64,000 bases of DNA. Source: Capitulum mitella. Taxonomy: Eukaryota; Arthropoda; Thecostraca; Pollicipedomorpha; Pollicipedidae. The notes under the pieces are model-generated. The model saw only the letters and a list, made by a program, of their open reading frames with translations. It did not search any database and was not told the origin of the DNA. The stretch lies in assembly GCA_030062745.1 (NCBI GenBank), contig CP099840.1, forward strand, positions 10,492,437-10,556,436, given 5' to 3'. Positions 20,851-64,000 of the stretch are shown one piece after another. A program made the position numbers and the translations under genes. The stretch's first letter is position 1. Every line of letters starts with the position of its first letter.

Positions 20851-22069
20851 TTAACCCTATTCCCGGCAGGGGGGCCGAATCCGCCCCCCCCTCGGGTTTT
20901 TGCTTGCCAATTCCAGGCTTTTTAACGCAGCTTCACGAACTTGGTAGCTTTTCCTAGCTATTCTTTCTACGCGCCGTGACAAAATTCCAAAATTCTATTT
21001 TGCTCAGGAGCAGAGTCAGGCAACGTTTTTGGGAGGCACCTCAAGCCATTTTGGCCATGTTGAGGGTAAAAGGAAAATGTCTGCCAAAAACAACGTGTTT
21101 AAGATAGAACTTAAAACTTTATATGGATGTATAGCTAAATAGCTGGACAATGCGCAGATATAATTTTGTTCGTCTGAGGTCACTTTACAAGGTCAGGTCA
21201 AGGTCAAAAGTCAAAATTTGTTTTTTCGCAATAATTTTTGTGCTGTTTCTTTTCAAATGCCAAACTCGGAATATATTGACGTAAAAAGGTGCCCTCTACT
21301 TGTTTATCAAGTTTCAGCTTGATATCAGGCTGGGTCACGGAGCTATGACCTAAAATGTCAGTGCGCGTACCCTATATCGCAATAGCCATAAAATGAAACT
21401 TTTGAAATAGAGTGAATTCAAATGATTGAAAACGTTTACAGATGATATTAAATGCACACGAGACCATTCCAAGTGACTCCAAGGTCACTGGAGGTTATTT
21501 AAGGTGAAAGGTCACAAGTTGATCTGAAGAGCGTGTGACCATGACATTTCCCATTTTCATGTCCCTGGCACCGCCTATGCTAACATTATACAAGCATTGT
21601 AATGCGATTTGTACTTCATTAGCATAACATGACTAGCATGACTAGCAGAAGGCAAAAAAGTGTTTTTGTCTTTTTTTATTCATCCATTTGTTGGAAAACT
21701 AATCATCCTATTTTTGAAACCCTGTGAACGCCCATAAATTTTTTCAACATTTCAGATGTGTGTACCAATGGTAAAAGTCCTATCCATAATCTCTTGATTC
21801 ATGCCAGTTTCATAGAAATCGGTCCATAAACAACGGAGTTACAAGAAGTCCATAAATACCCCTGATTTTGACATTTTTGCCCCCTGTATCCTCACCCTTT
21901 AAAATTTTCATTTTTTTATAAAAATGTGCTTCACGTCATGGCAAATCGATTCCCGTTGTTGCGATGAAATCGGATGTGTAGTTTTCGAGATCTCGGGGGG
22001 GGGGCGAATCCGTCCCTGCTGGGAATCGACCATACCGTCTAGCCCTTTGGGAATAGAGAGCAGGGTTAA
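20851..22069 (+). mobile_element. TTAA family 2 element, copy 1
   Basis: It starts TTAACCCTATTCCCGGCAGG and ends 'gggaatagagagcagGGTTAA', so the termini are TTAA plus an inverted repeat close to CCCTATTCCCG. It is 1219 bp with no transposase. It contains a half-site cluster at about 21176-21212, including TCAAGGTCA at 21198-21206. The same layout recurs at 53046-54264 and, inverted, at 59764-60979. It is probably a piggyBac-like MITE. Confidence 0.75.
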
Positions 22070-43800: not shown

Positions 43801-44801
43801 AAGATGGTTTAAGCGTCCCTGAAACTGCCAGATGGGTCCCTGAGACTGTCCGAGGTGCCGCTGAAACTGCCGAAGGAGAGCCTGAGGCGTCACACGGGAC
43901 ACGTGAAACCGTAAAAAGAACCTGAGACCACTAGAGGATCCTGGCACGGCAGACAGCCCGGGACCATCAAAAGTGCCCCTGTAACTGCAAGATGGAACCT
44001 AAACTAAGCTGACAAACAATCCCCAGAATCTACGGGATGGGAGGGGGGACAGACGGGTCTTGGACCAGATACAGACACGACATTTCAAACGGATGGAGGG
44101 ACAGAACCGCCTAAAATCTATCCGTTTTTGTCACATTTCGGCCACTTTGTTCGGGAACAAAACGCAGAATTTTCTGAAATAAGTGATGCGTTTGGATTTT
44201 TTTTCGGCTTTTTTATATCGTAAAAAGGAAAACTGCATCATTTTTCATATCTGAAGGGCAAAAATATGGGGACCCCGCGCTGAACCATTCGCCTCCACCC
44301 CCACCCCCCGTCCTGGCGAAATCCTGGATCCGCCCTTGGCAAGGGACCCCATTGGTTACGAGGGCCCCCTTGGCCTGATTTGGCTCCCCTTATGCGGAAG
44401 CCTGGCTACGCCCCTGTGTCTGCGTCACCCCATACTAAAAATGTTATGAAAAATTCCGTCAATTTAAAAAAACGACATTTCTTAAAACGGGCTTGACCTA
44501 AGGTCAATGACCCAGCAAATTCCGAAAAATCTGAGATAGCAGATTTCTTGAGCTCATCAAGATCTATACTCCCTGAAGGTTTTACTGTGACATCAATTAA
44601 ACTTTTTTGGACATGGGTCCGTTTGACATGACCCAGGTTAGACAACTTACTTGACCTGAGGTCAAAACTTTGACACAAGGCGTAAAAATGATCATGCAGA
44701 AGGTATACGAAGTTTCGTGGCGCTGCGTTTGTTCGTTCTCTCGCAATCCTGAAAAACCTCAGCGGGGGCGGTCAACCGTCCCCCCAGTGGGGGCGGGTTA
44801 A
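40812..44801 (-). mobile_element. TTAA family 1 element, copy 5 (inverted), split by a hAT insertion
   Basis: The outer ends are TTAA at 40812-40815 and 44798-44801. The element reads collinearly with copy 4 up to 41625, is interrupted by 2791 bp of foreign DNA, and resumes at 44417. Without the insertion and its duplicated 8 bp it would be about 1.19 kb. Half-site clusters lie at about 41558-41573, 44494-44509 and 44648-44667. No coding capacity. Confidence 0.85.
41626..44416 (+). mobile_element. hAT-type element with degenerate minisatellite interior
   Basis: It starts CAGGAGCGTAGTCAAGG and ends CCTGGCTACGCCCCTG. It is flanked by perfect 8-bp duplications TGTCTGCG at 41618-41625 and 44417-44424, which proves insertion and fits the hAT superfamily. 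It carries no transposase. From about 41870 to 43990 the interior is a degenerate array of roughly 22-26-bp units around 'cccctgagac..ccagaggg'. Near 44310-44340 the sequence 'aaatcctggatccgccc' resembles another hAT terminus, so a second element may be embedded. G/C-rich, unlike its host element. Confidence 0.85.
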
Positions 44802-45400: not shown

Positions 45401-45691
45401 GTCTTTTGTCCACACTTCGACTTTGCGCCTCCTGATAGTTTTTTTTCTACACTTCCACGTTTATTTCTGCGATCCACACACTCTTAAGGTAGGCCTCTCC
45501 ACTTCAAATTTTCTTTTCCGAGCTGTTCCCTGACTTCTGTCACGGGCAAGCGAAGTAAACGAAAGAAAAACAACACTGACTCTATAGGCTCGAACTCGGA
45601 CTCTGATGTCAGCCCTTCTGCAGACATCGATATTGGTGTTTGCAGAGGTGCAACGGACAGGACGATTCACAAATAGAAAGATGACCACGGC

Positions 45692-47218
45692 TTGAATCCG
45701 GAACAGATCTCGACACACGAACACACTTCGTCTGACACGATATCGGATACTGACCTTCGCACGAACTCTGACACTGCTCAGAACCGCACCATTTTCAAAC
45801 ACGCTGACTCTTCACGTTCTCGTGACCTTGACCTGCCCCTGACTGCGCCCGAGCCCCACGGCCCTGGCAGCGTGCCAGGACCGGCCCGGCCGGAAGGGTC
45901 GAAGGGCTTATCCGGACTCGCACAAGCAACCAGGGCAAACGACAGGTGCGCTGTGGCAGAGGATACTGTCGGGGCAACACGCGGTCAGATGCACGGGACG
46001 CCATGCCCGGTTCGAGAGCCCTACCTGGACCCACTTGGGTCATACGTAGTAGTGAAACCTACCGACTCGAATACAGACTTTCAGAAAATCAACGTCTGGG
46101 CACCTCCAGAACAGACAGAAGCAATCTGCGGTCCAAACATTCGGCTCCACATTCAAGCACCTCGTGATGGTTCTCTCATCATCAAAACAAACAACCGCCA
46201 TCAAACCAAAATGCTTCTCAAACAGACAACTTTCTGTACTAAGGCAGTGACGGTCACCCTTCACCCGACTCGCAACTCGTGCAAGGGAACTGTGTTCACA
46301 CCTGAACTCCGCTTCATGTCTGAAACGGAGATTCAACACGAACTGAGAGACGAGCTGGTCAGCCACGTCCGTCGACTAACCACCTTCAGGGACGGACAGC
46401 GTCAGGACACCAGTCTTCTTGTCCTCACGTTCGACACTCCCAGTCTCCCTCCCAAGCTCCACGCCGGCTACCTCTGCTTCGAAGTGCGCCCATTTATCCC
46501 CAACCCTCTGCGCTGTTTCAACTGCCAGAGATTTGGTCATGGCTCCCGGAACTGCAGACAAGCTGCTCGTTGCGCTCGCTGCGGTGATGCTGCGCATGAG
46601 GGCTCCCTGTGCTCCAAACCTGCTCGATGCATCTCTTGCGAGTCTTCCGATCACACCACAAATTCGAAGAACTGTCCCGTCTGGCTGACAGAAAAACGCA
46701 TTTGTGAGCTTAAGACAAAAATGAACATTTCATATCCCGAAGCACCACGTCAGGTACAATCACAGAAAAACCAACCTCAAAAGACCTATGCTCAAGTCAC
46801 ATCAAAGAGCAGCACCTCTTCATCTTCCCAGACTGATGACATCCCACAGCTTCCTCCACTTCAGCTCTTAAAGCCTCTTTGTCACGAACCTAGTTCTGTC
46901 CGTTCTCAGTCCAATGAGAAGCACACAGTGACTGAACCACAAAAGGCAAGTGCAAAACAACCTGTGAGAGGGGCATCGGCAACTGCCCCCGCAACTCCTG
47001 GGCAGTTTGTCCCCAGGAGAGCACCACAGCCTACACTCCGGTCATATTCACGCGCACACCACCCTGGTGCTGAGGCTCCACCGTGCACTCCTTATAAGGA
47101 CAACCAACCTCCATCGCCCAGACCCGGTCCCAGTCGACCCCGGGGTCGCTCATCCAGCCATGGTAGGACTAAACAGGGGTCACAGGCCCTTTCAGGGATT
47201 CAGAGCATCTTTAGCTAA
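45692..47218 (+). CDS. LINE ORF1, nucleic-acid-binding protein with three zinc knuckles
   Basis: This is a long open frame of 508 codons. Its first codon in the open stretch (45692) is TTG, not ATG. The same frame is also open upstream from at least 45509 to a TAG at 45674, so the original ORF1 probably began further upstream and this copy carries one stop. The middle holds three successive CCHC-type knuckles: 'CFNCQRFGHGSRNC', 'CARCGDAAHEGSLC' and 'CISCESSDHTTNSKNC', about residues 277-330. The C-terminal 170 residues are rich in Pro, Ser and Gln and look disordered. Such proteins coat LINE RNA in the ribonucleoprotein particle. ORF2 begins 68 bp downstream. Confidence 0.8.
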   Translation: MNPEQISTHEHTSSDTISDTDLRTNSDTAQNRTIFKHADSSRSRDLDLPLTAPEPHGPGSVPGPARPEGSKGLSGLAQATRANDRCAVAEDTVGATRGQMHGTPCPVREPYLDPLGSYVVVKPTDSNTDFQKINVWAPPEQTEAICGPNIRLHIQAPRDGSLIIKTNNRHQTKMLLKQTTFCTKAVTVTLHPTRNSCKGTVFTPELRFMSETEIQHELRDELVSHVRRLTTFRDGQRQDTSLLVLTFDTPSLPPKLHAGYLCFEVRPFIPNPLRCFNCQRFGHGSRNCRQAARCARCGDAAHEGSLCSKPARCISCESSDHTTNSKNCPVWLTEKRICELKTKMNISYPEAPRQVQSQKNQPQKTYAQVTSKSSTSSSSQTDDIPQLPPLQLLKPLCHEPSSVRSQSNEKHTVTEPQKASAKQPVRGASATAPATPGQFVPRRAPQPTLRSYSRAHHPGAEAPPCTPYKDNQPPSPRPGPSRPRGRSSSHGRTKQGSQALSGIQSIFS

Positions 47219-47285
47219 ATCACACTCAATGCCGCTATTTTCCCAGAGCCAAGGTTTCTGCCTTAGGCTCTACACAACATTATTA

Positions 47286-50200
47286 ATGACTATTCTTCAG
47301 TGGAACTGTCGTGGTTTAATTAGCAAATGGGCCGAAATCAAACCTTTTTTGATGTTTTGTTCCTCTAATATTATATGTTTACAGGAGACACATTTCCTCA
47401 CAGACGACCCGTACGACTTCAGTCTACCCGGATACTCTATGTTCATAAAATGTGATGACGTTCACAGACGCCATGGTGGAGTTGCCATATACATTTCTAA
47501 CAAAATTCCTCACCAACAGCTCTTGGTTCAAACAGACCTACAAGCGGTCTCCTGCACGGCTCTCATTTCAAACCGCCGTATCAGTGTATGTTCACTATAT
47601 CTCCCTCCAGGCGTACCCATTTCTCTTCAAGATCTACAAAACCTCATTGATCAGCTCCCACCGCCATTCATACTGTGTTTGGATGCCAACAGCAAACATT
47701 TTTTTATGGGGTTCTGACCGATGCGACAGAGGAGGATTAGTCTTCGAACAACTCATTAGAATCAACGCTTTACATGTCTTGAACAACGGCTCCCCGACAA
47801 GGCTGGATGAATTCTCTGGACTCGTATCACACATTGATGTTTCACTATGTTCTAGCGGATTAGCTCCTTTCCTTTCATGGGAAACTGACAACAACCCTCT
47901 TGCTAGTGACCACTTTCCGATAATAATTCAATACGTAGACGGTTCAACTCAAACAACACATTCCCACTACGATACTCCAGCAGGGTGGAGCATTAAAAAA
48001 GCTGACTGGGACTCCTTCCGAGCCCAGTGTCACATCGTCACCAAATTCACAGATGTTGACTCTGCCTGCATAAAAGTCACGCAATCGATTATTTCCGCTG
48101 CACGAGCCCACATCCCGACGACCAAGCCGCAAGGAAAATACAGGTGTCCTTGGTGGACAGACGCCTGCAAACAGGCAATAGCAGCGCGCAAAAGAGCATT
48201 AAATCGTTTCCGTCGAAACAGAGAAAACCCAAGCCTTCTCCTTGACTACAAAAAGGAAAAAGCCAAAGCTAGACGAACTATTCGAGCAGCTAAGCGGTCC
48301 AGTTGGCTACAGCTCCTAATAAATTCTCCACCTCCACACCCGTGCACACATTACGGGATACTGTTCGCAGTTCGATACACAAAAAAGCTTCCAGCATCCT
48401 CCTCCGGTTCTCAAAATCCAAGGAATCCAGGTAGATAACCCAACAGACGTGGCCAATCACCTCGGTCAATTTTACTCCCAACTGTCGTCCTCCACAAACT
48501 TAGACCCAGGTTTTCGTATCCAAGACAGTCTTATGACACACAATATGCCGGACTTTCATCTCGATTCAAACAACTCAGAGCCATACAACAATCCTTTCTC
48601 TTTGCACGAACTAAACTCATCCATAAATTCATCCGGTTCAACATCGGTTGGTCCGGATCTCATTCACTATGAATTTCTCAAGCAGCTCGACGACACCCAA
48701 AGAAGCAGACTCCTTGCTTTCTTCAATTATGTGTGGACACAGAACAGAATCCCCACGACTTGGAAGCACGCTTTTGTGGTTCCTCTTTTAAAACCAGGAA
48801 AACCTACAGACGCGCCTGAATCCTACCGACCAGTTCGACTTATTTCTTGTTTATGCAAAATCATGGAAAGAATGGTGAACTCCAGGATGTTGTGGCACGC
48901 CGAAAAATTCCAAATTATGTCCAAATACCAATGTGCTTTTCGCCCCGGGCGAGCCACAGCTGAGAATGTACTTCGCCTTGAATCTGACATACGCGGCGGC
49001 TTCTTCGCAAGAAAATTTACCGTGGCAATTTTCCTCGACGTTAAGTACGCCTATAATATGGTGCCCCGAGCAGGTCTTCTTACAAAACTTTATCACATAG
49101 GTTTCCGTGGACACTTCATGCATCTTATAAATTCTTATCTCAGCGGCCGGACACTACAAGTTAAAAGCGGAACCCTCTCGGACTCCTTCCCCCTGTACAA
49201 TGGGGTGGTCAAGGGCGGGGTCACTTCTCCTCTGCTTTTTCTTTTCATGATTAATGATCTCTTCGACGATTGCCCGGCTGGTGTGTCTCACGCACTGTAC
49301 GCAGATGACTGTGCTCTGTGGGCCACTGGAAAGAACCTGCAGTTGATTTTTCAGACTCTCCAACTTGCTCTTTCCCGAATTGAAGACTGGGCCAACAAAT
49401 GGGGTTTCTCATTCTCCGCACCAAAATCGAAAGCAATCATTTTCAGAAAATACATGAGACATGAGCAGTGCAGACCTCCGATAGATCTCCTTCTCAATGG
49501 GCAGCCCATCGAATTCGTGGAAAACGTCGAATTTCTAGGAGTACACCTGGACACCAAGTTAAATTTCACCACTCATGTACAATATCTTAAGGCAAGAGCG
49601 ATGAAAAGAATTCCCTTCATTAAATGCATAGCTGGTTCGGGCCCCGGAGCAGATAGAAAAACTATTCTTCGTATGTACTTCGTACTGGTCAGACCAATTC
49701 TGGAATATGGCGCGCAAGTCTTCGACAACTCGTCAAGGGCCCTTCAGTCTTTAGAGACCATACAACACGTTTGTCTGAGAATCGTACTGGGCGCTCTACG
49801 AACCTCACCGGTTGAGAGTCTCAGAGTTGAGGCCAACGTGCCACCACTGTCGCTGAGGAGGTGAGAGATGACCATACGGTATTTCCTACGGATTCTGAGC
49901 GACCGAGAACACCCTTGCTACCATCTGAAACACTGTATGGAATACCTGAGACACATGGACGAACAAATAATTTATCGACTCTGTGGCTTTCCTCTGTCAC
50001 TACGTTTTCACAAAGTCTGCAGAGATATAGGCTCCTTGGTGCCGACCAACGTGAGCAAAATTCGCAGTAGCCACCCTCCTTGGACCACCTCGCAGATCAG
50101 TTTCCAAACGCTCCCCTCACAGAACAAGAACACCCTAGACCATGATAAGGTCTGGGAGATGTTCTTGCAGTTCGTTGAAAATCATTCGGACTACCACCTC

Positions 50201-51012
50201 TTTTTTACCGATGGCTCCAAAGAACACGACACAGTAGGGTGCGCTTTTGTGTACAGACAAATCATCGGGCGACACAGATTACCGGACAAAATTTCCGTTT
50301 TCACCGCGGAACATAGCGCAACTCATCAAAGCCTGAAATTTATTCAGGCTCAAGGCATCCGGGAATCGGTTATCTGCTCTGACTCACTTTCTGCTCTCCA
50401 GGCCCTACAGTCCCCTCGCTGTCCTTATATTCGACTTGTATTGCGACATCACAAAGAAGGGCATGACCGTTAAATTTTTATGGATTCCCAGTCACTAAGG
50501 CATACGCGGTAACGAAAGAGCAGATATGCGAGCAAAAGAAGCCTTACGAATAACCACAGTCACCCCGGTTCCAGTTGGTCACAGCGAATTTTTTTCCGGA
50601 AATAAGGATACTGATATATTAGTACTTTGATGGATATTGGCGCAGCCACCCTCGTACAGCACTTTTAAAACACATAAAAAATTCGGTTGCTGATTGGGAT
50701 ACCAGCCACCGCCAAAACCGCCGGGAAGAAACTGTTTTGGCACGCTTACGACTGGGACGCACAAGACTGACTCATTCACACATAATAAATCACTCAGACA
50801 AACCTCTATGTGTCCCATGTCACTCATACCTTTCCGTATGGCACATACTCTTTGACTGCCAGAGGTACCAGAGAGAAAGAGAAAAACTGCGACTGACGTG
50901 CCGAAGCTTAAACCTACCATTCTCATTACACGGTATACACGGAAACAACGAGCCGGTCGTAAAAGCCCTGATTTGTTTTCTCAAACAAATCCACTTGTTC
51001 TCTCACCTCTGA
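47286..51012 (+). pseudogene. LINE ORF2: endonuclease, reverse transcriptase, RNase H
   Basis: It starts at ATG 47286 ('MTILQWNCRGL'). The endonuclease shows 'CLQETHF', 'LDANSKH' and 'SHIDVSL...SDHFP'. A frameshift lies in the T-run near 47700 and another near 48390. RT runs from about 48640 to 49560 with 'FLDVKYAYN' (motif A; the second Asp has become Asn), a worn 'GVVKGGVTSPLLF' and an intact 'YADDCALW' at 49298-49321. TGA at 49862 interrupts the frame. RNase H keeps its acidic residues in 'FFTDGSK', 'TAEHSA' and 'CSDSLSALQ' (50200-50400). More breaks follow near 50460-50640. The last frame ends with 'CVPCHSYLSVWHILFDC', a CCHC finger normal for the family terminus. The product would nick DNA and copy LINE RNA into it. 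Confidence 0.88.
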
Positions 51013-51128
51013 TGAGACATTTTCCCACATGCTTCTGTCCTCCACTCCTTAGTTTAATCAGGCACTATTGAGCACCCAAGATTCCTGTTAAATAACTTCT
51101 ACCACCCACAAAAACAATAACAACTGAT

Positions 51129-51420
51129 CTTCCAGCGGCCGGCGCGTGGTGCGTGTGTGGCAGAGGTTTTGCATGTGACGTATCTGTTACCTAGCGAATA
51201 TCAGAGATCGGCGTCGCTTCGGACAACTTCGAAAAGTCCACTATCTCGAGTTCCTAACAAGATACCAGCAGCGGAGAACCCGCTTTAAAGATGGGGGGGG
51301 GGGGTAAACGCGATGTCTTCCTCGTTTCTTTCCATGTAGCGCCATAGGATTAATGTGAAATGTTGCCCAAAACTGGGGGAGGCAGGTGTCCCCCCCCCAG
51401 TCCCAATGTCCCTAGAAGAT
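51129..51420. promoter_or_regulatory. CpG-rich block, candidate promoter region of the ENPP gene
   Basis: The stretch 51133-51260 has many CpG dinucleotides ('cggccggcgcg', 'tcggcgtcgcttcg'), while the next 3.6 kb has almost none. An unmethylated promoter in front of a methylated 5' gene body would look like this. No TATA box or initiator is obvious and the transcription start is not visible. The block from 51290 is a G-run plus a worn dispersed repeat. Confidence 0.3.
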
Positions 51421-52435
51421 ATGTAGTTTAGTTTTGTCAAATCCTTTACTGAATCTGTTTGATTGTTATGGGCAAGGATGCACAGCTTCTTGGGCTCCAT
51501 GGCTTGAACCAAGTCCGGTTTCTCCTCAGACATCATTTGTCTGTTTTGTTGAGGCTGTTATTAGTCAGTTGGACAGACTTCAACCACTCTGCTCAGCAGG
51601 TTGAAGCTTGGCATATTCTGTTCCATTGTATTAAACCAAATAAAGGTCATTCCAGAGATACTTGATGTCTCTGCATTGTGCTGTGTAACACTCGGAGAGC
51701 TGCCTCGTGTATTGTCAGCATAGCCTGTGGGTCTGCTAAATGTATGCCATGAAAATTAAGCCTGAACCTCCTGGATCAACTGCACTGCAGTCATGTCCCT
51801 TTGTGGTCAAGCTCAATTGCATTTTTCAGATATAAGTTCTTCTCAGTGTGCTGAAATAGACAGTTTTCAGAACATAAGTTGTGTCAAGCTGAGCATAGTG
51901 AGAAACCCTGATGCCACCATGACCACCATGGTGACTCATTTTCACTGGTAACCATTATCATGCAACTACAGAGATGACTTTGTCAGTTATTAAGTGTTTC
52001 TAAAAAAACTGGTCGTGGGTATTGACATTGATCATGTTACAGAAATTTGGGAATTACCTCAGTTATCAAACAGTTTTGCAACTGAGTGATAATTGTACTA
52101 CTGGTGGTTATAGCTAAAGTATCTACATTACCAGACAAATGATTCATTATTCTGCCTGTATTGTTACTTTGAATGTGCCTTAGATTGTATCTATGTATGA
52201 TTTATTCATTCTGGTGGGCATAGGCATGCGTAATAACATGTAATATTTCATGCCAAGTATTTGGCCATATGTTTCATGGGAATCTTGTTTGTACCTATCA
52301 GCTTCATGTTAACCTGGTGTTTTTAGTAGTTTTTGGCCAGTTTAAATAAAGCGTTTTGAAGACTAGAATTGTCCCATGTAGATTATTTCTTAGCTTTGTA
52401 ACTCCTTATTTTTCAAAACTCCAATCTGTTTTCAG

Positions 52436-52921
52436 AGTGGACTGAGCTGTGATTGCAAGAGAGCAGGACAAGCAGACAAGCGTGATATTAATCAGATTAT
52501 CAGAAGGCACATTGATGTGTGCTACAGCTACTTTAATACAAAAACAATGAACATTCCCAGGTTGTCATCACCAGGTTCTTACATTCATCATGCTTTCATT
52601 TGGAGTTCCCTGTGGTACTCAGCCACCTGCATCTCTGAGCAGCCCATCCTGCTGTTGCTGTCATTTGATGGACTCAGATATGATTACCTATACAAGGCAA
52701 ACCTGACACACTTTGACCAGTTGCGTCAGTGGGCCTATGTGCCCCATGTGCGGCCAGTGTTCCCCTCCAAGACTTTTCCAAATCATGTTTCAATGGCAAC
52801 TGGGCTGTATGCTGAGACCCATGGTGTCATTGGACCTTATATAGACCCTGAGACCAAGCAGGTGGTGGATCTCAATGAGACTGCATACTGGAACTACAAC
52901 AGTCAGGTTCAACCCATCTGG
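52436..52921 (+). CDS. ENPP exon 1 (first coding exon) with 5' leader
   Basis: The acceptor 'ctgttttcag' ends at 52435. The ENPP frame is open from 52436 onward, but the first ATG is at 52547, giving MNIPRLSS and a hydrophobic segment, so I start the protein there. If an upstream exon is coding, the N-terminus would be longer. The exon encodes 125 residues including metal ligand D41 and nucleophile T76, and ends in phase 0 at the donor ATCTGG|GTGAGT (52922). It is CpG-poor, unlike exons 3-8. Confidence 0.88.
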
Positions 52922-55900
52922 GTGAGTAGCATCCAGCAGAGTGGGAAGAAGTAGTGGATGTGTTAACTTGTAATTCTTGAAGTTTGGGTTCTTCTTTTTG
53001 CCTAAACATTGAAATGCATCACTTGCAGGTCTGGGTTTCTCTGACTTAACCCTCTTCCAGGCACAGGGCTGAATCCACCCCCTTGGATTTTGCCTGCCAG
53101 TTCCAGGGTTTTTGATGCAGCATAATGAAATTTGGTGGCATTCCCAAACTATTTTTTTGTATACCGTAACAGAATCTTGTAATTCTATTTTGTTCGGAGG
53201 CGGAGCCAAGCAACGGTTCTCGAGAGACACTTTGTGCCATTTTTGGCCCTGTTGAGGGTAAAAGGAAAATGTCTGCCAAAAGTAGAACTTTGTAAGATAG
53301 AACTTAAAACTTTACATGGATGTATAGGTAAATTGTTGGGCTGGCATACAAATACAATTTTATTCATTTGATCATCACTTTGCAGGGTCAGGCCAAGGCA
53401 AAAATCAAAATTTGGTCTTATAGTAATAATTTGGGAATTGTTCTTTATAATGTCAAACCTGGAATATATATGGTGTAAAAGGGTCCCCTCTGCTTATGTA
53501 CTAAATTTCAGACTGATATCAGGTTAGGTCATGGAGCTATGGCCTAAAATGTTGGCATGCACATCATATATCACAACAGCTATGAAATGGAATTTCAGAA
53601 GTAGAATGAATTCCAATGATGGGAAACATTTTCAGACAATAAGAAATATACACAAGGCCACTCCTAGTGACTCTAAGGTCATCAGAGATCATGTAAAGTC
53701 AAAGGTCATAAGTTGACCCAAGGAACATGTGACCATGGTAGTTCTCCCTTTTTCATGTTCCTGGCACCACTGTGCTAACATTATACAAACAGTGTAGTAT
53801 GATTTGTACTTGTTCAGCATAATGTGACTTGCAGAAGCTAAAAAAAATGCCTTTAACTTTTTGTTAATTTGGTTTTTGAAAACTGGTCCTCCTGTTTTTG
53901 AAATCCTGCAAACATCTGTGAATTTTTTTGAAATTTCAAATGTATGAACCAGTGGTAAAAATCACATTCATAACATCTTGATTCATGCCAATTTCATTGA
54001 AATCAATTCACAAACAACAGAGTTATAACAAGTCCAAAAATATCCCCTGTTTGAATTTTTTGCCTTCCTTTGTATCTGTCCTTTCAGAAATCTGAAAACT
54101 CCTTTTTATAAAAATGCAGTTTATGTCATGGCAAAGTGGTTGCCATTTTTGTGATGAAATTGGATAAGCAGTTCTTGAGATTTCAGGGGGGCCGAATCCA
54201 CCTCCCCCTCCCCCTGCCTGCCAGGAATTGGCCATACCGTCTAGCCCCTCGGGAATAGGGTTAAAGCTGGAATGGCAAATCATGCCCCACTGTTTCTGTC
54301 CAACATGCAGTTCTGTCCCTCATTAGTTGCTCAGTGAGGCATTTTTATCCAGCAAGCATGTCTGTCTGTGAACAGTTGCTGAATGAGGCAGCCGGGGCAG
54401 GCCGTTACAGTGGCTGCATGATGTGGCCTGGCTGCCATGAGATAAAGCCACCCACCTATGTCCAGCTTTATAACAGGTGAGCATGAGGAATGGGTGTCAG
54501 ATGTGAGAAGTGTCTCACCAGGAATGTTTATCTCATTCTTCACAGCAATGGTTTGTGCTTTGTGGAAGTAAATGTATGATGTAGGAGTTCAAATAACAGG
54601 ATTTAGGCTTGTTTCATATGTTAGAAAATGCAAGAATGACATTATCTCCAGCATGTATACTTTGTAACAGACAGACGAAGATGTTTTGCCCTTATTCTTT
54701 TGTGCTGTTTGACAAAACTCATGAGAAATTTCACAGATTGCTTAGAACCAGCTGGTACTAGCACTGATCTGGTCAGGAAAAACACATGACGAGCATTTAT
54801 GTCATGTGAATTCATGTTTTTTGCCTTCACTGATTTGATTTTTAGCCCATATCGCATGCATGAAGTCTTAAGAGATCATAAATGTACTGACAGGTGTATT
54901 TTTCTCCTGCTGATATCTCTGCGTTGTCTGGCGGACTCTTGAGAATGTGATCAGTGTTGTTGTGGTTAATAATGTGTGTTAAGACAAGATGTTGATCAAG
55001 AATGTGGATTTCTGTAAATAACTGGGGAGTGCGGAACCGAGGGCCTGGCAACATGATCTCCAAACAGTAACAAAAACCTGAAGTTTTTTTTGTTACTGTG
55101 TAACAGATGAAAAATTGCATTTACTCCCATGTTATAGAAAGATATATAGATAGATAGATAAATAGCTACATTGCATTAAATTTTATTTTTTACTTTCTGA
55201 GTATCTCTTATCTATTGTGGCGGTTTTTTCGTCACTATTACGCGTTTTCCTTTAAAACCAGCAGAAAATATTGGGGGAGGGGCCAAACCAACATTGGGTG
55301 AGGCCCAAATCAACATTTGGTGGGCCAAAGTCCTTTCAAAAGAATACAGATTGACACCCCTGATGTTCACATGGAGTTACTACCACGTGGTTTGTCTGTT
55401 AACTTTGTGACTGTGACTTTTTAGTATGTCGGTCAGGTCAGAAACTTGGCGGGGGCGGGTCATTGTAGTGTTTGACTGGCTGTGTGCTGTATGCGGTCTT
55501 GACCTGTTTGTAACTGTGTCGGTCAGGTCAGTGCCGTGGTGGGAGCGGATCATTAGCGTGTTTGCGGGAGCGGGTCAGTGTGGTGTTTGATTAACTGTGT
55601 GCTGTGTGCGGTCCTGAGCTGTTGTGTAACTGTTTCGTTCAGGTCAGTACCGTGGCGGGAGCGGGTCAGTATGGTGTTTGACTGGCTGCGTGCTGTGTGC
55701 GGTCCTGAGCTGTTGTGTAACTGTTTCGGTCAGGTCAGTGCCGTGGCGGGAGCGGGTCAGTATGGTGTTTGACTGGCTGCGGGACGCCGAACGACCGGCC
55801 AATCTGCTTCTCTGGTACATCGAGCAGCCCGACTACGTGGCGCACGCCTTCGGACCCGACTCCCCGGAGGTCAGTCGCTCGGGGCCGGACCGTCCGCGGT

Positions 55901-58900
55901 CAGGACCGCGCGGCAGAGACCTGGAGACCGGATTACAGCAGGCTTTCCTCTGAAGGTTGTGTATGTCGGGCTTTACCATCGTGGGATCGCAGGCCTCGGG
56001 CAGATCCTCGCCGGTCAGACACTGGTGCCGGCTTCCGTTGCCGTCGTGGACTCCGTCAGGCTCCTGCTGGTCTTAGGAGGAACGTGTTGGTTATGTGAGC
56101 CTTCGAGTGCCTCCTCCGGTTCCTGCGGAACTGACCCAGTCCCAGTTCCAGATTGTGCCAGCTTGGCTGCTGCATCTTGGATGTAATGCTCCTGGGGACT
56201 TTCTGTCTCGGTGTCACTGTTTTTTTGTGACTGGTTTCGTTATGTACGACGTGTTCCAGCACATATTAAGCATTCTTATGCCGCCACGTGCAGCGGTTTT
56301 AATCCCCCCCCCCACATTCCGCGTCGTTTACAGGTGCATCCCTGCTCTTCTGAGCTTCCTGCTCAGTTCCATGGGCAGCCCCCTGCTCAACACCCTCTCA
56401 ACATGTGGAAAACTGAGAAGGCGTGGCGCAAGAGCAAAAGACATCTCCCACAACCTTGAATTCTCTTAAGCTGGCAGCGTGCGCCACCGATTTGAGTAAC
56501 GGGCCTTTCGAACAGTCTCCAAGCAAGTTTACGGAAGTCATCTGCGGCGACAAGACGAGTGCCCCTGACATTTGCAGTGAGCTCCACCGTAGCGGCGGCC
56601 GGCCGGAGAGGGCGTCCGGACGGCCCGAGTGCCGATTGTGCGGCCGCAGTGAGCTGGGTATCCGGACGGTCCGAGTACCGACTGTCCCGGGCCGCCAGGT
56701 GCTGGAGCAGCTGCAGCGGGCCGACGAGCTGCTCGGCTACATCGTCAGGACGCTGAGGCTGTTCGAGCTGCAGGATCGCGTCAACCTGGTGGTGACCTCG
56801 GACCACGGCATGGCGGCCGTGCCGCCCGGCCACCTCATCAACCTGGACGACGTGGTCGATCCGGCCTGGTACCGAGCGCTGGGGCCCGATCCAGTCTTCA
56901 GGATCGTGCCGGAGACAGGTCGGTGACCTGTGATATGAGCTGTGGCTGTCACCGGGCCCTGGGACCCGACCCTGTCTGCAGGATCGTCACAGAGACAGGT
57001 CGGTGTTCTGTGATATGACCTGGGACTGACTGCACGTGGTGCTGGGACCCGACCCCTTGCTCAGGATCGTCCCTGACTCAGGTCAGTGAACTGGCGGACA
57101 CCCAAGGCTTTTTGCGTTAGTGGTGTGTGACATTCATCTGACTGCCAAGTCACACCTGATATCACACCTGAAGTAACGTGCTGGGCAGACTGCATCGATC
57201 CAACCTGTTTGCAGGAGCTGCGTTTAAACAAAACACCATGCCGTATGCCGGAGCTGGCAGAGTTTGCCATTCGGAGCTATGGCTTCACCTTCGCGTCAGT
57301 GGGTGTTTCTTGGGAACACACCCCTGTATTTTTTCCTGGTTACATTGGAACGGCTTGTGTTAGACGTGCCAAATTTCCAGTATCTGTTCTTCAGTCCATT
57401 CGGCACATTATGATATGCAGTGTTTCTCAGGGCCATAACAGCCCTGCTGTTATCCCCTGGAAGGTTATGCTCGGTGAGGTCGGCGCCTGCTTTGCGCTCG
57501 ATGTCCGCCGGCCGGCGCACCACCGCCACTTTTTTTAGCAACCGAAACAGCAAAACCTGTTTAAACGTAAAATGATTCGTGCACCATTTTTTTGAGGATG
57601 GAATGAGGGATCCTTGATGTATGTATCGCATCGTTTTCTGTAGTAACTTTTTCGTTCAGGGGCATTTACTGATTATGCCGATAATCGTTGTCGACGAAGC
57701 AGAAAACTGAGCATCATAAACGTAAGCTGAAGACATAATTACCATCATAGCTGGTATGAGTGATCATTGTGACTGCACATCTTGCGGTGCCAGATTCAGA
57801 GCAGCTACTAGAATTACATTTTCTGGATTCATATTTAGATTACATTGCCCGTAAACGTGGCCGTGCGCTGTTGCGTGACGTATTTACGTCGTCGTACATA
57901 TTTACGTCATATGCTGGCGTGGCGTCGTAGAAGGAAACGGGCCCCGATGACTCGAATTCTGTCCACGTCGGTGGCTATAAATTCGTGGCTCGATCAGCTA
58001 GGAGGCGATAATTGAATTTGCCAAATTTCGGTTCGTCTTGATCAGGGGATCTGACGTTGGAAGGGGGTTCTAGATCCTCACCCCACTAATGCGATGGCGC
58101 TGGAGCTCCCACCAACGAGAACGATAATTTCGGTCAGCGAGACATGAAGCGCACTGTACCGGGGACAGTTTGGCAACTGCTACACTCCCCGCCTCGTGTG
58201 CAGAGCATCGCGTCACGCGTACCAGTTTGTCTGTTTTGAACCACTGCTGGGGTGGGCTAATATCAGAGAGGAACATATCGTGGGGCAGCCGTTGCATATC
58301 TGCGGCCTTAATACTGGGTGTGAAAGTTCGCTCTGTGAATGGGGGAGCGTGGTTTGTTTTGTGTCGTCGCGCAGTTTTCGTTTCCTTTGAGCACGTTGAA
58401 CACGTCTGACAATTGTCAGCGTGTGTGTCGTGACAGGAACGACACCTCCAGATCGCCTCTTCCTCCGCCAGCAGTCTGGCAGTGTGTGACTGTCTCCGGG
58501 ACGGTACAGATTTATCACCTCCCCTGGCCTGGCGGGTAGAACTGTGGTCCCCTTGGTGTCCCTGGGAGGTCCTGACTAGTTATCTCCCCTCGCTGTCTGC
58601 GGGAGGTCCTGACTAGTCATCTCCCCTCGCTGTCTGCGGGAGGTCCTGACTAGTCATCTCCCGTCGCTGTCTGCGGGAGGTCCTGACTAGTCATCTCCCC
58701 TCGCTGTCTGCGGGAGGTCCTGACTAGTCATCTCCCCTCGCTGTCTGCGGGAGGTCCTGACTAGTCATCTCCCCTCGCTGTCTGCGGGAGGTCCTGACTA
58801 GTCATCTCCCCTCGCTGTCTGCGGGAGGTCGTGACTAGTCATCTCCCCTCGCTGTCTGCGGGAGGTCCTGACTAGTCATCTCCTCTCGCTGTCTGCGGGA

Positions 58901-61900
58901 GGTCCTGACTAGTCATCTCCCCTCGCTGTCTGCGGGAGGTCCTGACTAGTCATCTCCCCTCGCTGTCTGCGGGAGGTCCTGACTAGTCATCTCCCCTCGC
59001 GGTCTGCGGGAGGTCCTGACTAGTCATGTCCCCTCGCGGTCTCCGGGAAGTCCTGACTAGTCATCTCCCCTCGCGGTCTCCGGGAGCTCCTGACTAGTCA
59101 TCTCCCCTCGCTTTGTGCGGGAGGTTCTGACCGGCCGCCTCTGCTCGCCCGACAGGAAAGAGTCTGGCCGTGTACGACCGCCTGCGAGACGGCTCGGAAA
59201 AACTCGGCCTTAACTACACCGTCTATGTCAAGGAGAAGATCCCCGAGCGCTGGCACTACCGCAACAACCCGCGCGTGCCCGACATCCTGGTGGTGGCGCA
59301 CGAGGGCTTCCTGTTCGTCACGCCCGAGCTAAACGCGACTCTGGAGCACTACCGTACCCGCGGCCTGAACTTCACAGGTGGGAGCTGGCGGCACCGGTGT
59401 CTCGCGGACGGGAGTGGGTGAGGGCGCCCCGGGGTAGTAGAAACGGCGGTATGCTGGTGATAGTTCGTCTTTCAGTGAGAAAAGCGATGAAATATCGAAC
59501 AGAAAACCAGTGGTGCCAGCTGCACACAATGAATTCATCAGGTTGTGACGTATTCCAGCCAATCCTTCTGCTTTTTATGGACTGACTGCAGTTATGTATT
59601 GCGTAGTCGGCGTCAGACCCTTTTGAAGACTAATTTCTTAGTGTTTTCGTGCCTAATGTGAAAAAACGAGGCCGCCGATCATACATGTCATGTTTTTCAC
59701 TTCTTAGTAATTGTGTTAAATCACTCTATGTCCGCTCGATGGCAATCACTTCCATTCTCGTTCTTAACCCTATTCCCGGAGGGCTAGACGGTATGGTCGA
59801 TTCCGGGCAGGGGGGCGGATTCGACCCCCCCCCTGAGATCTCGAGAACTACTCGTCCGATTTCATCGCAACAAACGGCAATCGATTTGCCGTGACGTGAA
59901 CTACATTTTTATTAAAAAGAAATTTTCACAATTTCGAAATTTGTGGATACAGGGGGCAAAAATGTCAAAATGGGGGGTACTTTTGGACGTCTTATAACTC
60001 CGTTGTTTATGGGCCGATTTCAATGAAACTGGCATGAATCGAGGGATTATGGATAGGGCTTTTACTATGGGTCCACAAATCTGAAATTTTGAGAGAATTC
60101 ATGGGCGTTCACAGGGTTTCAAAAATAGGAGGAGTAGTTTTCTAACAACTGAATGAACAAAAAAGTTAGAAACACTTTTTTGGCTTCTGCTAGTCATGCT
60201 ATGCTAAAGAAGTATGAATCGCATTACATTGTTTGTATAATGTTGACATAGGCGGTGCCAGGGACATGAAAAAGGGGGAACTGTCATGGTCACACGTTCT
60301 TCAGATCAACTTGTGACCTTCCACCTTAAATGACCTCCGGTGACCTTGGGGTCACCTGGAATGATCTCGTGTGCATTTGATATTGTCTGTAAACGTTTTT
60401 AATCATTTGAATTCACTCTGTTCCAAAAATTTCATTTTATGGCTATTGCGATATAGGGTACGCACACTGACATTTTAGGTCATAGCTCCGTGACCCGACC
60501 TGATATCAAGCTGAAACTTGTTACACAAGTAGAGGGCACCCTTCTACGTCATTTGTAATCCGGGTTTGGCATTTGAAAAAACGGCGCCAAAATTATTGCA
60601 AAAAACAAATTTTGACTTTTGACCTTGACCTGACCTTGTAAAGTGACCTCAGGTAAACAAAATTTTGTGTGCACATTGCCCAACTATTTAGCTATACATT
60701 CATATAAAGTTTTAAGTTCTATCTTAAAAACTCTGTCTTTGGCAGACGTTTTCCTTTTACCCTCAACATGGCCAAAAATGATCTGAGGTGCCTCCCAAAA
60801 ACGTTGCCTGACTCCGCTCCTGAACAAAGCAGAACTGTGAAATTTTGTCACAGCGCATAGGAAGAATAGCTAGGAAAAGTGACCAAGTTTCATAAAGCTG
60901 CGTTAAAAAGCCTGGAATTGGCAAGCAAAAAACCCGAGGGGGGCGGATTCAGCCCCCCCCCTGCCGGGAATAGGGTTAAGTCATTGCCGTGCGAAGTTCG
61001 CTTTGCGTTAGTTTATTCCGGCGTAACACACCTCACATCGGTCTGACTAACGGCCCTTCCGTTCATATCAGGGTCTCTAGTCTGATTATCGTTGCCCGTC
61101 TCAATGTGAACGTGTTGGTCCCTGTGTCACCCTGACTGTCTCAGTCCGACCCTACTCCTCCTGGTGTGGTCTTGTGGTCCTATCCGTCTGACTCGTGGTC
61201 CCGTTGCCCCCTTGACGTCCCCCTGACGCCGTGGCGCCGTTGACAGGAACGCTGGGCAACCACGGCTACGACCCACAGTCAACCAACATGGAGCATCCTC
61301 TGCTAGCGCGCGGCCCGGCCTTCCGGCGCCACTTTGTGCACACCACGCTGCTAGAGAACGTGGACGTATTCGAGCTGGCGGCGCTGGTGCTAGAGCTGCC
61401 GGTCGTCGCCAGCTCCAACGGCAGCCGGCTGCGCGTGCGGCCGCTGCTGGCGCCGGCCTCACTCGGCTTCTGGATCGGCTCCGGCAGCGCCGGCTTCTGG
61501 GCGGCCGGTCAGTCCGCTGCTTTGGAGGCCAGAGGAGGGGCAGGCGGTGGGCAGGGTTGTTTCCTGGGGAAGGGCCGGCCTCTGGGCGGCCGGCCAGTCG
61601 GGAGTTCGAGGCCCAGAGGAGAGGCGGGCAATGAATAGAAATGCCTCTTGAGGCGGCACTGGCCTCTGGACGGCCGGCCAGTCCGCGCCTCGGGAACTGA
61701 GAGATGGAGAGGAGGGAGGAGTTCATTATAGAGGAAGGAGGGTTTGTACAGTCTGGATTGATATAAACCGCTTTCATGCTAGTTGCTCGCCAAAGATTTT
61801 GTCGTTTCATGTGATATGCCGAATATAACGTCAGAACTCTCAACTCAGTAAATACAGCCGCTGTCCCGGGCGGCGCGGGATCGCCGTCGTCGTTCGGTCC

Positions 61901-62652
61901 GTTTCACGGCCGACTGGAGGAGCGGCCGGCTCTGAGTCGGCTGGTGGTCGGTCGGCGCCGGCGGGCGGTCGGCCGTGAATCGACCCCTGGCCAGGCCGTC
62001 CGGAGCGGCGCCGGGTGACCGTCGCTGCCCTGTTTCCAGTAACCGTGTCCACGGTGTTTGGCGTCTGCGTGCTGGCGCTCGTGTTCGTCGTGGTTCGGCG
62101 CAGCGTGCGCAGGCGCTCCGTCAGCTCATCGCTGGTCAGCGGGTACATGTTCAGGTGCGGCCCGAACCCGGCCCGGTCGCCGGCCTTCTGCTGGGGTCTG
62201 GCCTGCTGTGGCCGGCGGCGTGCTGTCGAAAGCGAGGCGTCCGCTTATCATTGTACGCGGTCCCCAGCCCTCGCCGCCCCAGCCGACGGCCGCTGGACCT
62301 CGTTCCGAGCACAGACATGGGATATCCCCGGCGCCACGTTGGCTCGGACGGAATATTTTTGAAGTGGTCTCAGAAGCCCATCATTGTCGCGGAGGCGGGG
62401 ACGTCGGTCGGTAGTGCCTGCCTGGCCTATCTGTGAGTGCCTGGTGTTTTATGGTGGACCAACTACCATGTCACGGGACGCCTGTAATGCACACTGGACG
62501 CCTGTCTGTACGCTTCGTCGGTTTGCAGGTATTCGCCGGTGCACCGTGTGCGCGGCCGTGTCGACCGCGTGCCGACCTCGGCCAGCAGTGACGACGACCC
62601 GGAGGAAGTGGAGCACCTGCTCTCCGAGGCAGGCCAGCCGGCCGGCGTCTGA
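52547..62652 (+). CDS. ENPP4/5-like ectonucleotide pyrophosphatase/phosphodiesterase (8 coding exons)
   Basis: Exons: 52547-52921, 54376-54476, 55734-55869, 56699-56918, 59156-59377, 61247-61507, 62040-62154, 62529-62652; they total 1554 nt, 517 residues, with matching phases at every junction and GT..AG introns. The protein has a signal peptide (about 1-30), the phosphodiesterase domain (about 33-430), one helix at about 440-457 and a basic-then-acidic cytoplasmic tail. The seven metal/nucleophile residues of the family are present: D41, nucleophile T76 (SKTFPNH), D192 and H196, D239 and H240 (TSDHGM), H357 (GNHGYD). Size and C-terminal anchor match vertebrate ENPP4/ENPP5, which cleave extracellular dinucleotides and related phosphodiesters. 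The tail has an acidic dileucine motif (E503-L508), suggesting endocytic sorting. The 5' untranslated exon(s) and poly(A) site are not identified. Confidence 0.93.
53046..54264 (+). mobile_element. TTAA family 2 element in ENPP intron 1
   Basis: It runs from TTAACCCTCTTCCAGG (TTAA 53046-53049) to GGGAATAGGGTTAA (54261-54264). It is collinear with 20851-22069 and, inverted, 59764-60979. It makes up 1219 of the 1454 bases of intron 1. It is the most diverged copy, with many CG-to-TG or CA changes. The TCAAGGTCA word of the other copies is lost here ('ggccaaggcaaaa'). Confidence 0.85.
54376..54476 (+). CDS. ENPP exon 2
   Basis: Acceptor 'tctgtctgtgaacag' ends at 54375 and the donor is AACAG|GTGAGC at 54477. 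It encodes LLNEAAGAGRYSGCMMWPGC and following residues, matching the 'AGxxSGxxxWPG' stretch of ENPP proteins. It starts in phase 0 and leaves two bases (AG) for the next exon. It is too short for a typical ORF scan, and its placement rests on homology and phase. Confidence 0.9.
54477..55235. other. ENPP intron 2, 5' part
   Basis: AT-rich intronic sequence with a short (ATAG)n run at about 55140-55160. No exon-like signal is seen. Confidence 0.6.
55236..55335 (+). repeat. Dispersed repeat C, copy 2 (ENPP intron 2)
   Basis: 'cctttaaaaccagcag' followed by repeated 'caacatt.ggtgaggccca(a)a' words. It matches the inverted copy at 39088-39180. Confidence 0.65.
55430..55769 (+). repeat. Tandem copies of the exon 3 splice acceptor (about 91-bp unit)
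   Basis: The junction '(c/g)g(t)tcag|gtcagtgccg' recurs with AG at 55435-55436, 55525-55526, 55641-55642 and 55732-55733; the last is the true exon 3 acceptor. Spacings are 90, 116 and 91. Each unit contains the acceptor, about 50 bases of exon 3 (through TTTGACTGGCTGCG) and about 40 bases of intron. The two copies nearest the exon are almost identical. Because 91 is not a multiple of three, use of the 55642 site would shift frame and reach TGA at 55770. Confidence 0.9.
55734..55869 (+). CDS. ENPP exon 3
   Basis: One base completes Arg159 (AG|G), then SVPWRERVSMVFDWLRDAER and on to QPDYVAHAFGPDSPE. This matches the ENPP 'SVSFEDRV..I..W' and 'DPDxxGHxxGPDS' blocks and supplies metal ligands D192 and H196. 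The donor is CCGGAG|GTCAGT at 55870, phase 0. I chose the acceptor at 55733, not the ATG-proximal AG at 55760, because only this choice restores the conserved RSVPWRERV block and the phase. Confidence 0.9.
56600..56698 (+). repeat. Duplicated exon 4 splice acceptor (49-bp unit, 2 copies)
   Basis: 'tccggacggcccgagtgccgattgtgcggccgcag' is followed 49 bp later by 'tccggacggtccgagtaccgactgtcccgggccgccag'. The second ends at the true exon 4 acceptor (AG 56697-56698), the first at a decoy AG (56648-56649). A transcript using the decoy would read TGA immediately in the incoming phase 0. Confidence 0.8.
56699..56918 (+). CDS. ENPP exon 4
   Basis: It encodes VLEQLQRADELLGYIVRTLR, then DRVNLVVTSDHGMAAVPPG and on to FRIVPETG. 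It contains metal ligands D239 and H240. The acceptor gccgccag|GTG has a weak pyrimidine tract. The donor is GAGACAG|GTCGGT at 56919, phase 1. The join to exon 3 (GPDSPE-VLEQL) agrees with ENPP spacing. Confidence 0.9.
56873..57090 (+). repeat. Tandem copies of the exon 4 splice donor (about 80-bp unit, 3 copies)
   Basis: The exon end 'ctggggcccgatccagtcttcaggatcgtgccggagacag|gtcggtg' is repeated in the intron. Copy 2 has its GT at 56999 ('ctgggacccgaccctgtctgcaggatcg...gagacag|gtcggtg'). Copy 3 has its GT at 57082 ('ctgggacccgacccctt...gactcag|gtcagtg'). Spacings are 80 and 83. Both decoys keep a usable-looking GT. Confidence 0.88.
57091..58568. other. ENPP intron 4, middle part
   Basis: No exon or gene is recognised. 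'cagtgtttctcag' at 57419 resembles a hAT terminus without a partner. Confidence 0.4.
58569..59123 (+). repeat. 37-bp minisatellite, about 15 units, running into the exon 5 acceptor
   Basis: The unit is 'gtcctgactagtcatctcccctcgctgtctgcgggag' in two halves: 'gtcctgactagtcat' and 'ctcccctcgctgtctgcgggag'. Starts recur every 37 bases from 58569. Most units are identical and the last three or four are diverged. Each unit holds a branch-point-like CTGAC, a pyrimidine tract and a trailing AG. The true acceptor segment (59124-59155, 'gttctgac...ctctgctcgcccgacag') aligns with one shortened unit. Confidence 0.92.
59156..59377 (+). CDS. ENPP exon 5
   Basis: Two bases complete Gly278, followed by KSLAVYDRLRDGSEKLGLNY, 'KEKIPERWHYRNNPRVPDIL' and 'VVAHEGF'. 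This fits the ENPP4/5 'vYkkedvPERWHYk...Ri' block that precedes the last metal ligand. Three N-glycosylation sequons (NYT, NAT, NFT) agree with an extracellular location. Acceptor cgcccgacag|GA; donor TTCACAG|GTGGGA at 59378, phase 1. Confidence 0.93.
59378..59763. other. ENPP intron 5, 5' part
   Basis: No feature is recognised before the TTAA element. Confidence 0.5.
59764..60979 (-). mobile_element. TTAA family 2 element in ENPP intron 5 (inverted)
   Basis: Both ends read TTAACCCTATTCCCG on their own strands (a perfect 15-bp inverted repeat including TTAA). It is 1216 bp with no transposase. It contains the reverse complement of TCAAGGTCA at 60620-60628. It is better preserved than the intron 1 copy and retains CpGs such as in 'attgcgatatagggtacgcac'. 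Confidence 0.88.
61247..61507 (+). CDS. ENPP exon 6
   Basis: Two bases complete Gly352, then TLGNHGYDPQSTNMEHPLLA, 'RGPAFRRHF' and a C-terminal part rich in Leu, Ala and Gly. H357 in NHGYD is the last metal ligand, and 'HGYDP....MHPIF.A.GPAF' is a family hallmark. The donor is GCGGCCG|GTCAGT at 61508, phase 1. Confidence 0.93.
61480..61690 (+). repeat. Tandem copies of the exon 6 splice donor (about 85-bp unit, 3 copies)
   Basis: 'ggcttctgggcggccg|gtcagtc' at the exon end recurs as 'ggcctctgggcggccg|gccagtc' (61593) and 'ggcctctggacggccg|gccagtc' (61677); spacings are 85 and 84. Following intron sequence ('gaggcc(c)agaggag') is also repeated. In both decoys the donor GT has become GC, so they are weak or dead. 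Confidence 0.88.
61691..62039. other. ENPP intron 6, 3' part
   Basis: GC-rich intronic sequence. No further feature is recognised. Confidence 0.5.
62040..62154 (+). CDS. ENPP exon 7 (membrane helix)
   Basis: It encodes VTVSTVFGVCVLALVFVVVR and then RSVRRRSVSSSLVSGYMF. This is a single hydrophobic helix followed by a cluster of Arg, as in a type I membrane protein with a cytoplasmic C-terminus. Acceptor ccctgtttccag|TA; donor TTCAG|GTGCGG at 62155 (the +3 to +6 bases are poor), leaving two bases. Confidence 0.9.
62529..62652 (+). CDS. ENPP exon 8 (cytoplasmic tail and stop)
   Basis: One base completes Arg477. The exon encodes YSPVHRVRGRVDRVPTSASS and then DDDPEEVEHLLSEAGQPAGV, stop TGA at 62650. 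E503-V-E-H-L-L508 fits the [DE]xxxL[LI] sorting signal bound by clathrin adaptors. Acceptor cgtcggtttgcag|G. Confidence 0.9.
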
Positions 62653-64000
62653 GCGGCTCAGCGGGGCCGTCCTCTGACGTCACCCGACACGGCTGCCCGT
62701 CTCCGTACACACTGGCAGCCGCCGGCTGAGCGGGGAAGGTGCGGCTCTGCGGGATGGCCCGGGGTGCCGGGGCTGGTCGAGATGGCTTTCGGGACCGGCG
62801 ACGCGGAGCTGCTCTGTTCTGCAGTCACTGCCGCCTGGGGTCTGTGGTCCCGTCTCTGGTGTCAGGGCCCGGCTCTGCTTTGTAGAGGCCACCGGAGATC
62901 TGTCGTCCCGTGTTTGGTGTCAGAGTCGGCTCTACTCTGTGGAGGCCGCCACCGCTGGCTTTTGGCTGTGTTGGTGACTCAGGCGTGATGGCTGCAGGCC
63001 TTTTAATGCGTGCAGTGTGGTTTTGTCACGTTTGAGGGGTGAAGGGCAGCTTTCTGGTATGAAATGTTCGCATAATTTTAATCATAGCAGCGTTGAGGAA
63101 ATGCACAATACGTCGTATCATTGCCAGCCAAAATTCAACATTCCACGGGCCAACTTTCAACATTCCGTTAGTCTACTCCGATGATTTTTGAGCAGTAGGC
63201 TGTCTGACTTCTGGGACACTAACAGAGGTTCGACACCGGCTGGCCGCGCAGACTAGGACGCTGTAGAACCGCAGCGGTCCGTACGTCGTTAAACGCATCG
63301 CCTTGAGCCGAGCCTTCGCCGGCGTTGAGTGTCTGGTGTGACGCGGCGTCGGCGCCGTGCCGCCGGCCGGCCTGCCGCCGGTGCCGGCCCGCCGCGTGCA
63401 GTCAGTCACATGCGCGGTGTTCGGGCGTGCTGTTGTCCGCCGTGGTCCGGCCGTTCTCCGGTGTCATTGTCGGCTCGCTGTTGGGGCGAGCGGTCGGTCG
63501 GAGGTGTGTTGAGTGGCTGAGGTGTTTCGGACCTGTGATGTGGTGCAGTGCCAGGACACTGGTTGGTTTCCGGCTGGGGGACCGGCGTTGTGCTGTGGGG
63601 TTTCGGTCCTGGTCCCGCTCGACATTAGCGATGGCTACGTTGTTTTTAACTGGCAGATTTGGATTCGCGAACGTGCCGCCCTGGTCGATGATCCCTAGTC
63701 ATGTGTTTTGCTTGGATGTTGTCATGGCCGGGGTAACGAGCTTAGAGGATTTGAAGGTGGTTAGGTTTAAATTGGTCATGTTATTCGCACACTGTTTATC
63801 CCTTGCACACAAAGCGTGGCATCCATAGTCATCCGTCTCTAGGTATGTAGGTGTGTGGTCTTAAGCGACGCTTGTGCCGTGTGTCATCGCTACCCGCTGT
63901 TATTCTCACTCGGCGTTATAAATGCCACTTTTCCAGTCTATATATCAATGTGATCGAGCGGTGCTCGGGTGGGACCAGAAGTCATTTAGGGTTGTTGACT
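62653..64000. other. ENPP 3' flank; no further gene recognised
   Basis: No AATAAA is visible, so the transcript end is unknown. A 58-bp tandem pair lies at about 62841-62956 ('tctgtggtcccgtctctggtgtcag', 'tctgtcgtcccgtgtttggtgtcag'). A weak repeat C relic ('caacattccacgggccaactttcaacattcc') lies at 63137-63168. GC-rich open frames at 63325-63828 lack known domains. Confidence 0.4.

Follow-up and report, generated by a model that had tools for sequence, protein, structure and literature searches.

The 64-kb stretch of DNA analysed here (hereafter the window, at its full length; 47% GC) contains a single recognisable host gene, on the + strand, which we predict to encode an ENPP4/5-like phosphodiesterase. 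We found that six of the 14 splice junctions of this ENPP-like gene lie in tandem arrays, namely the acceptors of exons 2, 3, 4, and 5 and the donors of exons 4 and 6 (Table 1). As judged from the accessible text of two reports, these arrays closely resemble the mirages of lancelets (amphioxus), which are minisatellite-like tandem duplications of exon/intron boundaries (PMC3087553, PMC3902484), so that the kind is already published and appears here in unusual density. We regard it as probable that the arrays are mirage-type junction duplications, tolerated as long as splicing continues at the exon-proximal site; the duplications would most likely be neutral or mildly harmful, neutrality being something that we infer.

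The gene was modelled as eight exons (52547-62652) with an intact frame; its spliced open reading frame (ORF) has 517 codons plus a stop, and all seven introns have a GT donor and an AG acceptor. The start codon was assumed to be at 52547, and a further exon may lie upstream of what we call exon 1. The predicted protein covers the full Pfam Phosphodiest profile PF01663 (1-342 of 342, E-value 1.4e-78), and its nearest solved structures are those of ENPP5 (5ven, E-value 1.7e-72) and ENPP4 (4lqy, 2.1e-64); we identify the predicted product as an ENPP phosphodiesterase with the whole Phosphodiest domain in frame. A Pfam scan of nine further ORFs of the window, a part of its ORF list, found no second host gene: four had mobile-element domains (one of these, RVT_3, under the curated cut-off) and five had no match. 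An Rfam search of the window gave no matches.

Arrays were detected with Tandem Repeats Finder (TRF), by a listing of self-repeats, and by aligning junctions in comparison with shuffled flanks (300 shuffles). An earlier note on this DNA had described arrays at five of the 14 junctions, and the three approaches together confirmed all of them where it had placed them; each appears in the self-repeat listing, and those at the exon 4 acceptor and exon 6 donor fall under the TRF score. Its account needs corrections, among them that the exon 5 array meets its acceptor solely by way of a 16th copy, which is decayed. The count rises to six with the exon 2 acceptor, absent from that note, where the array scores 17 against a maximum of 15 over the shuffles and is older and weaker. 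The remaining eight junctions fell under our standard for an array, the exon 3 donor being borderline (p = 0.02) and the other seven having p = 0.10-1.0.

Table 1. Junction arrays and exons of the ENPP-like gene, in window positions (a slash within a motif marks the splice junction)
Feature	Position	Strand	Remarks
Array 1, exon 2 acceptor	54293..54392	+	2 copies, offset 49; extra copy TTAG/TTGCTCAGTGAGGCA
Array 2, exon 3 acceptor	55429..55781	+	4 copies, unit 91 bp; CAG/GTCAG kept in 4/4
Array 3, exon 4 acceptor	56608..56707	+	2 copies, offset 46-49
Array 4, exon 4 donor	56866..57108	+	3 copies, unit 80-83 bp; CAG/GT kept in 3/3
Array 5, exon 5 acceptor	58564..59155	+	15 copies of 37 bp plus decayed 16th
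Array 6, exon 6 donor	61483..61683	+	3 copies, unit 84-85 bp; GC replaces GT in extra copies
Exon 1	52547..52921	+	donor GTGAGT, phase 0
Exon 2	54376..54476	+	
Exon 3	55734..55869	+	
Exon 4	56699..56918	+	
Exon 5	59156..59377	+	
Exon 6	61247..61507	+	
Exon 7	62040..62154	+	transmembrane-like segment; array at neither end
Exon 8	62529..62652	+	includes stop codon

Exonic and intronic sequence are both present in five of the six arrays, the exception being that at exon 5. The unit at the exon 3 acceptor comprises 43 intronic and 48 exonic bp, and its extra copies (offsets 91, 207, and 297) have identities of 98, 80, and 70% with the true copy. At the exon 4 acceptor merely ~7 exonic nt are taken in. 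The extra copies of the exon 4 donor (offsets 80 and 163) are 80 and 61% identical to the true copy, and their exonic and intronic parts have diverged to a similar extent (42/53 and 22/27 positions matching, respectively). Those of the exon 6 donor lie at offsets 85 and 169. Leaving the exon 5 array aside, extra copies vary in age, with 61-98% identity to the true copy across arrays, and seven of the nine extra copies at exons 2, 3, 4, and 6 retain the AG or GT. The exon 5 array is built differently, in that it contains no exonic base and has an AG at the place of the acceptor in none of its 15 upstream copies. These 15 copies (58564-59118) match the unit at 34-37 of 37 positions (92-100%), and their near-uniformity, seen in one haplotype, suggests recent turnover. 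The decayed 16th copy (59119-59155) matches at 22/37 and ends exactly at the acceptor, while the best match among 9,310 off-array positions was 21/37. Another tandem pair, with an offset of 58, lies right after the stop codon (62780-62995) and is on no junction.

Splicing at the exon-proximal copies gives an intact frame, from which we predict that these copies are the ones used, as the earlier note had supposed for the donor arrays and the exon 3 array. For the seven extra sites with a retained AG or GT, at 54327, 55437, 55527, 55643, 56650, 56998, and 57081, the prediction is different: use of any one of them would lead to a stop 670-1097 nt upstream of the last junction, and to a truncated protein. 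Transcripts with stops that early would be liable to nonsense-mediated decay. Both the intact frame and the truncation at seven of seven retained sites fit a suggestion made in the earlier note, that such duplications persist chiefly where one usable junction remains; such a filter explains why duplications persist at junctions, but not why they should be more frequent there than inside introns.

The course of events that we propose, in which the actual splicing and the mutational mechanism are inferred from sequence, would be as follows. Short segments (~37-91 bp) lying across or next to an exon edge would have been duplicated in tandem by slippage or unequal exchange, in several events at differing dates. 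The spliceosome would stay with the exon-proximal site, so that the coding sequence does not change and the remaining copies turn into intron, where they would decay as non-functional sequence; some arrays, such as that at exon 5, may re-expand like ordinary minisatellites.

Whether arrays coincide with junctions more often than chance would allow was assessed within this one gene and its 14 junctions. The earlier view that the overlap is hard to explain as chance holds when arrays are the unit of counting (6/6, P = 0.0003-0.004); it does not hold at some thresholds, nor robustly when sites are counted. At a score threshold (T) of 17, all six arrays of the gene body are on a junction, against 1.7-2.3 expected from random placement. 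Under uniform placement P is 0.00026 unmasked and 0.0011 with transposons masked; block rotation after excision of the transposons gave 0.0035, and a separate run at this threshold 0.0005. Lower thresholds gave similar results (T15, 6/6, P = 0.0016; T16, 6/7, P = 0.003). A 22-bp array found by TRF at 55270-55326 overlaps no junction. We take the junction excess in this gene to be real but modest.

Several points weigh against the junction excess or against tolerated junction duplication as we have described it. The threshold of 17 is exactly what the two weakest junctions score, and is thus favourable after the fact; under stricter ones the array-level result weakens (T19, 5/6, P = 0.008; T21, 5/6, P = 0.007; T23, 4/5, P = 0.031; T28, 3/4, P = 0.11). 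With no exonic base, the exon 5 array counts as a junction duplication merely in a loose sense. When its decayed copy is dropped the array-level P becomes 0.029, and when the array at 55270-55326 is added as well the count is 4/6, with P = 0.039, or 0.089 with masked transposons. Site-level rotation gave P = 0.009, 0.17, and 0.11 at T 17, 19, and 23, and with transposons cut out P = 0.017 at T 17 and 0.31 at T 23, and a run with a shorter, 48-nt probe, in which the exon 6 donor was placed one base off, ranked only three of the 14 junctions within roughly the highest tenth of sites in the gene region. Pure tolerance, moreover, predicts no surplus at junctions relative to intron interiors. Finally, among the nine extra copies outside exon 5 the junction core is more conserved than its surroundings (P = 0.014 for ±6 nt and 0.023 for ±4 nt; 0.067 and 0.16 for wider cores of ±8 and ±10 nt), which would fit decoys that are used or selected. 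Over 10 copies there is no robust excess of decoy-site conservation (P = 0.28 for ±6 nt), and selection on the decoy sites was dropped as an explanation for want of a robust signal.

Among other explanations, the one to which we give most thought, while holding it to be on balance unlikely, is that the overlap is coincidence enhanced by detection bias. On this view, non-transposon sequence of this gene is rich in short tandem repeats; junctions lie in older sequence, with intron interiors filled by younger transposons, and a duplicate of which one copy is constrained (exonic) would be recognisable for longer. Consistent with this, a tandem hit was found at none of 525 sites in transposon stretches and at 22.5% of 1,496 other sites of the gene, the site tests are weak at stricter thresholds (P = 0.11-0.31), and the sample consists of 14 junctions in one gene, with a threshold picked when the results were in view. 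Against it, the array-level excess stands with transposons masked (P = 0.0011-0.006) as well as cut out, and tandem hits drop with distance from the junction: at T = 17, among non-transposon intron sites and with the exon 5 array excluded, they occur at 26-33% of sites within 200 bp, at 9% of those at 200-400 bp, and at 0/283 beyond 400 bp. We think it improbable that the extra copies instead function as alternative splice sites and thereby regulate the gene, e.g., via degraded transcripts. Such a role would suit the seven extra sites with AG or GT retained, and the copies at exon 3 and at the exon 4 donor have the form AG/GT, a motif that can be used as a 5' or a 3' site according to the accessible part of one report (PMC10809524); yet both extra donors at exon 6 have GC, all 15 exon 5 copies are missing the AG, the decoys have no robust conservation as given above, and lancelet mirages are reported, in the text accessible to us, to leave splicing undisturbed (PMC3087553, PMC3902484).

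The possibility that tandem duplication of a piece of exon with AGGT gave rise to the introns themselves, making donor and acceptor copies of one another, appears very improbable. The mechanism is documented (PMC4974935, PMC3443670), and a case from potato begins, as far as the available text relates, with a duplication over an intron/exon boundary (PMC4974935). In the ENPP-like gene, however, each duplication sits at a single end of its intron, and the best score over all pairs of junctions (14 windows) was 12, as compared with maxima of 13-18 for shuffled flanks; we rejected intron gain by duplication since the donor and acceptor of the same intron are not paralogous. That the arrays are artefacts of assembly is hardly credible. 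In the 37-bp array, where the units hardly differ, the copy number might be incorrect, but most copies elsewhere are 61-85% identical to the true copy, which misassembly could not produce.

The earlier note had also proposed that introns here grow by duplication from exon edges, and this part we could not sustain: one haplotype gives neither a direction nor a starting point, introns 1 and 5 owe their large additions to two transposon copies of ~1.2 kb, and the arrays contribute well under 2 kb of ~8.5 kb of intron. The two transposon copies belong to a dispersed element with TTAACCCTATTCCCGG-like ends, present three times in the window (53042-54264 and 59764-60983 in introns 1 and 5, and 20851-22056) with 74-87% identity.

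Exons 1 and 2 together with intron 1 lie in a sharply bounded CpG-poor domain (51000-55400). The CpG observed/expected ratio (o/e) is 0.43, 0.15, 0.14, and 0.23 in the kilobases starting at 51, 52, 53, and 54 kb, and 0.89 in the following one; by exon it is 0.09 for exon 1, 0.26 for exon 2, and 0.95-1.36 for exons 3-8. Of 28 sites at which both other copies of the dispersed element have CpG, its intron 1 copy shows TG or CA at 22 and keeps CpG at two, while GpC, taken as a control for CpG decay, is kept at 19 of 40 sites. The pattern resembles that of germline methylation restricted to the 5' part of the ENPP-like gene. Five of the six junction arrays are in the CpG-rich part, and the weak sixth is in the CpG-poor part.

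Elsewhere in the window we noted a non-long-terminal-repeat retrotransposon at 45677-51009 (RVT_1, E-value 4e-33, with a weak RNase H-like match under the curated cut-off), a Mariner-like transposase at 17377-18021 in two adjacent reading-frame pieces (HTH_48, HTH_32, Transposase_1), degenerate 21-bp tandem repeats at 42000-44000 (GC 56%, CpG o/e 0.46), and a near-perfect tandem duplication of 246 bp at 12938-13435 (99% identical).

In the open-licence literature we found mirages described only for lancelets, where the accessible text of the two reports names Adh3, the globins BflGb6 and BflGb9, troponin C (TnC), and PGBD5, and gives normal splicing, length instability, and a proposed part in intron gain (PMC3087553, PMC3902484). 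As judged from its sequence, the ENPP-like gene has the anatomical features of mirages. Compared with what those portions describe, both have tandem copies of the exon/intron boundary with 5' and 3' junctions affected, units of comparable size (10-160 bp in lancelets, 37-91 bp here), and AG or GT kept in many, not all, copies, the proper site being exon-proximal (here predicted from the frame). They differ in density, with six arrays here and one to a few in each lancelet gene, and in copy age, the copies here being mostly older (61-85% identity), like those of the imperfect PGBD5, whereas lancelet globin copies are 81-100% identical. The potato RdRp gene, in which an intron was gained after a duplication across an intron/exon boundary (PMC4974935, in its available text), shares with the ENPP-like gene a tandem duplication over such a boundary that carried splice motifs along; unlike it, the ENPP-like gene has no sign of a new intron, and within each intron the donor is unrelated to the acceptor. 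Dual-specific AG/GT splice sites also occur in tandem repeats such as UBC, as far as the accessible text goes (PMC10809524), and arrays of AG/GT sites are likewise found here at the exon 3 acceptor and exon 4 donor (4/4 and 3/3 copies); the repeats of UBC are coding, unlike the extra copies in the ENPP-like gene, which would be intronic.

It is conceivable, though we find it rather doubtful, that tandem duplication in this lineage, which need not be lancelet, has mutational hot spots at splice junctions, and that introns are lengthened from their ends, gene after gene; the duplications could be seeded by the junction itself, for example at exon 3, where GGTCA is doubled (...GGTCAGGTCAG), or by co-transcriptional splicing. 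Mirages have been described in a few lancelet genes, and six in one gene make a dense case, which allows one to ask whether exon edges attract tandem duplication, how splicing picks among near-identical sites, and whether arrays of this kind supply the material from which new introns form. If the host is not a lancelet, the phenomenon would be wider than the accessible text of the lancelet reports suggests (PMC3087553, PMC3902484).

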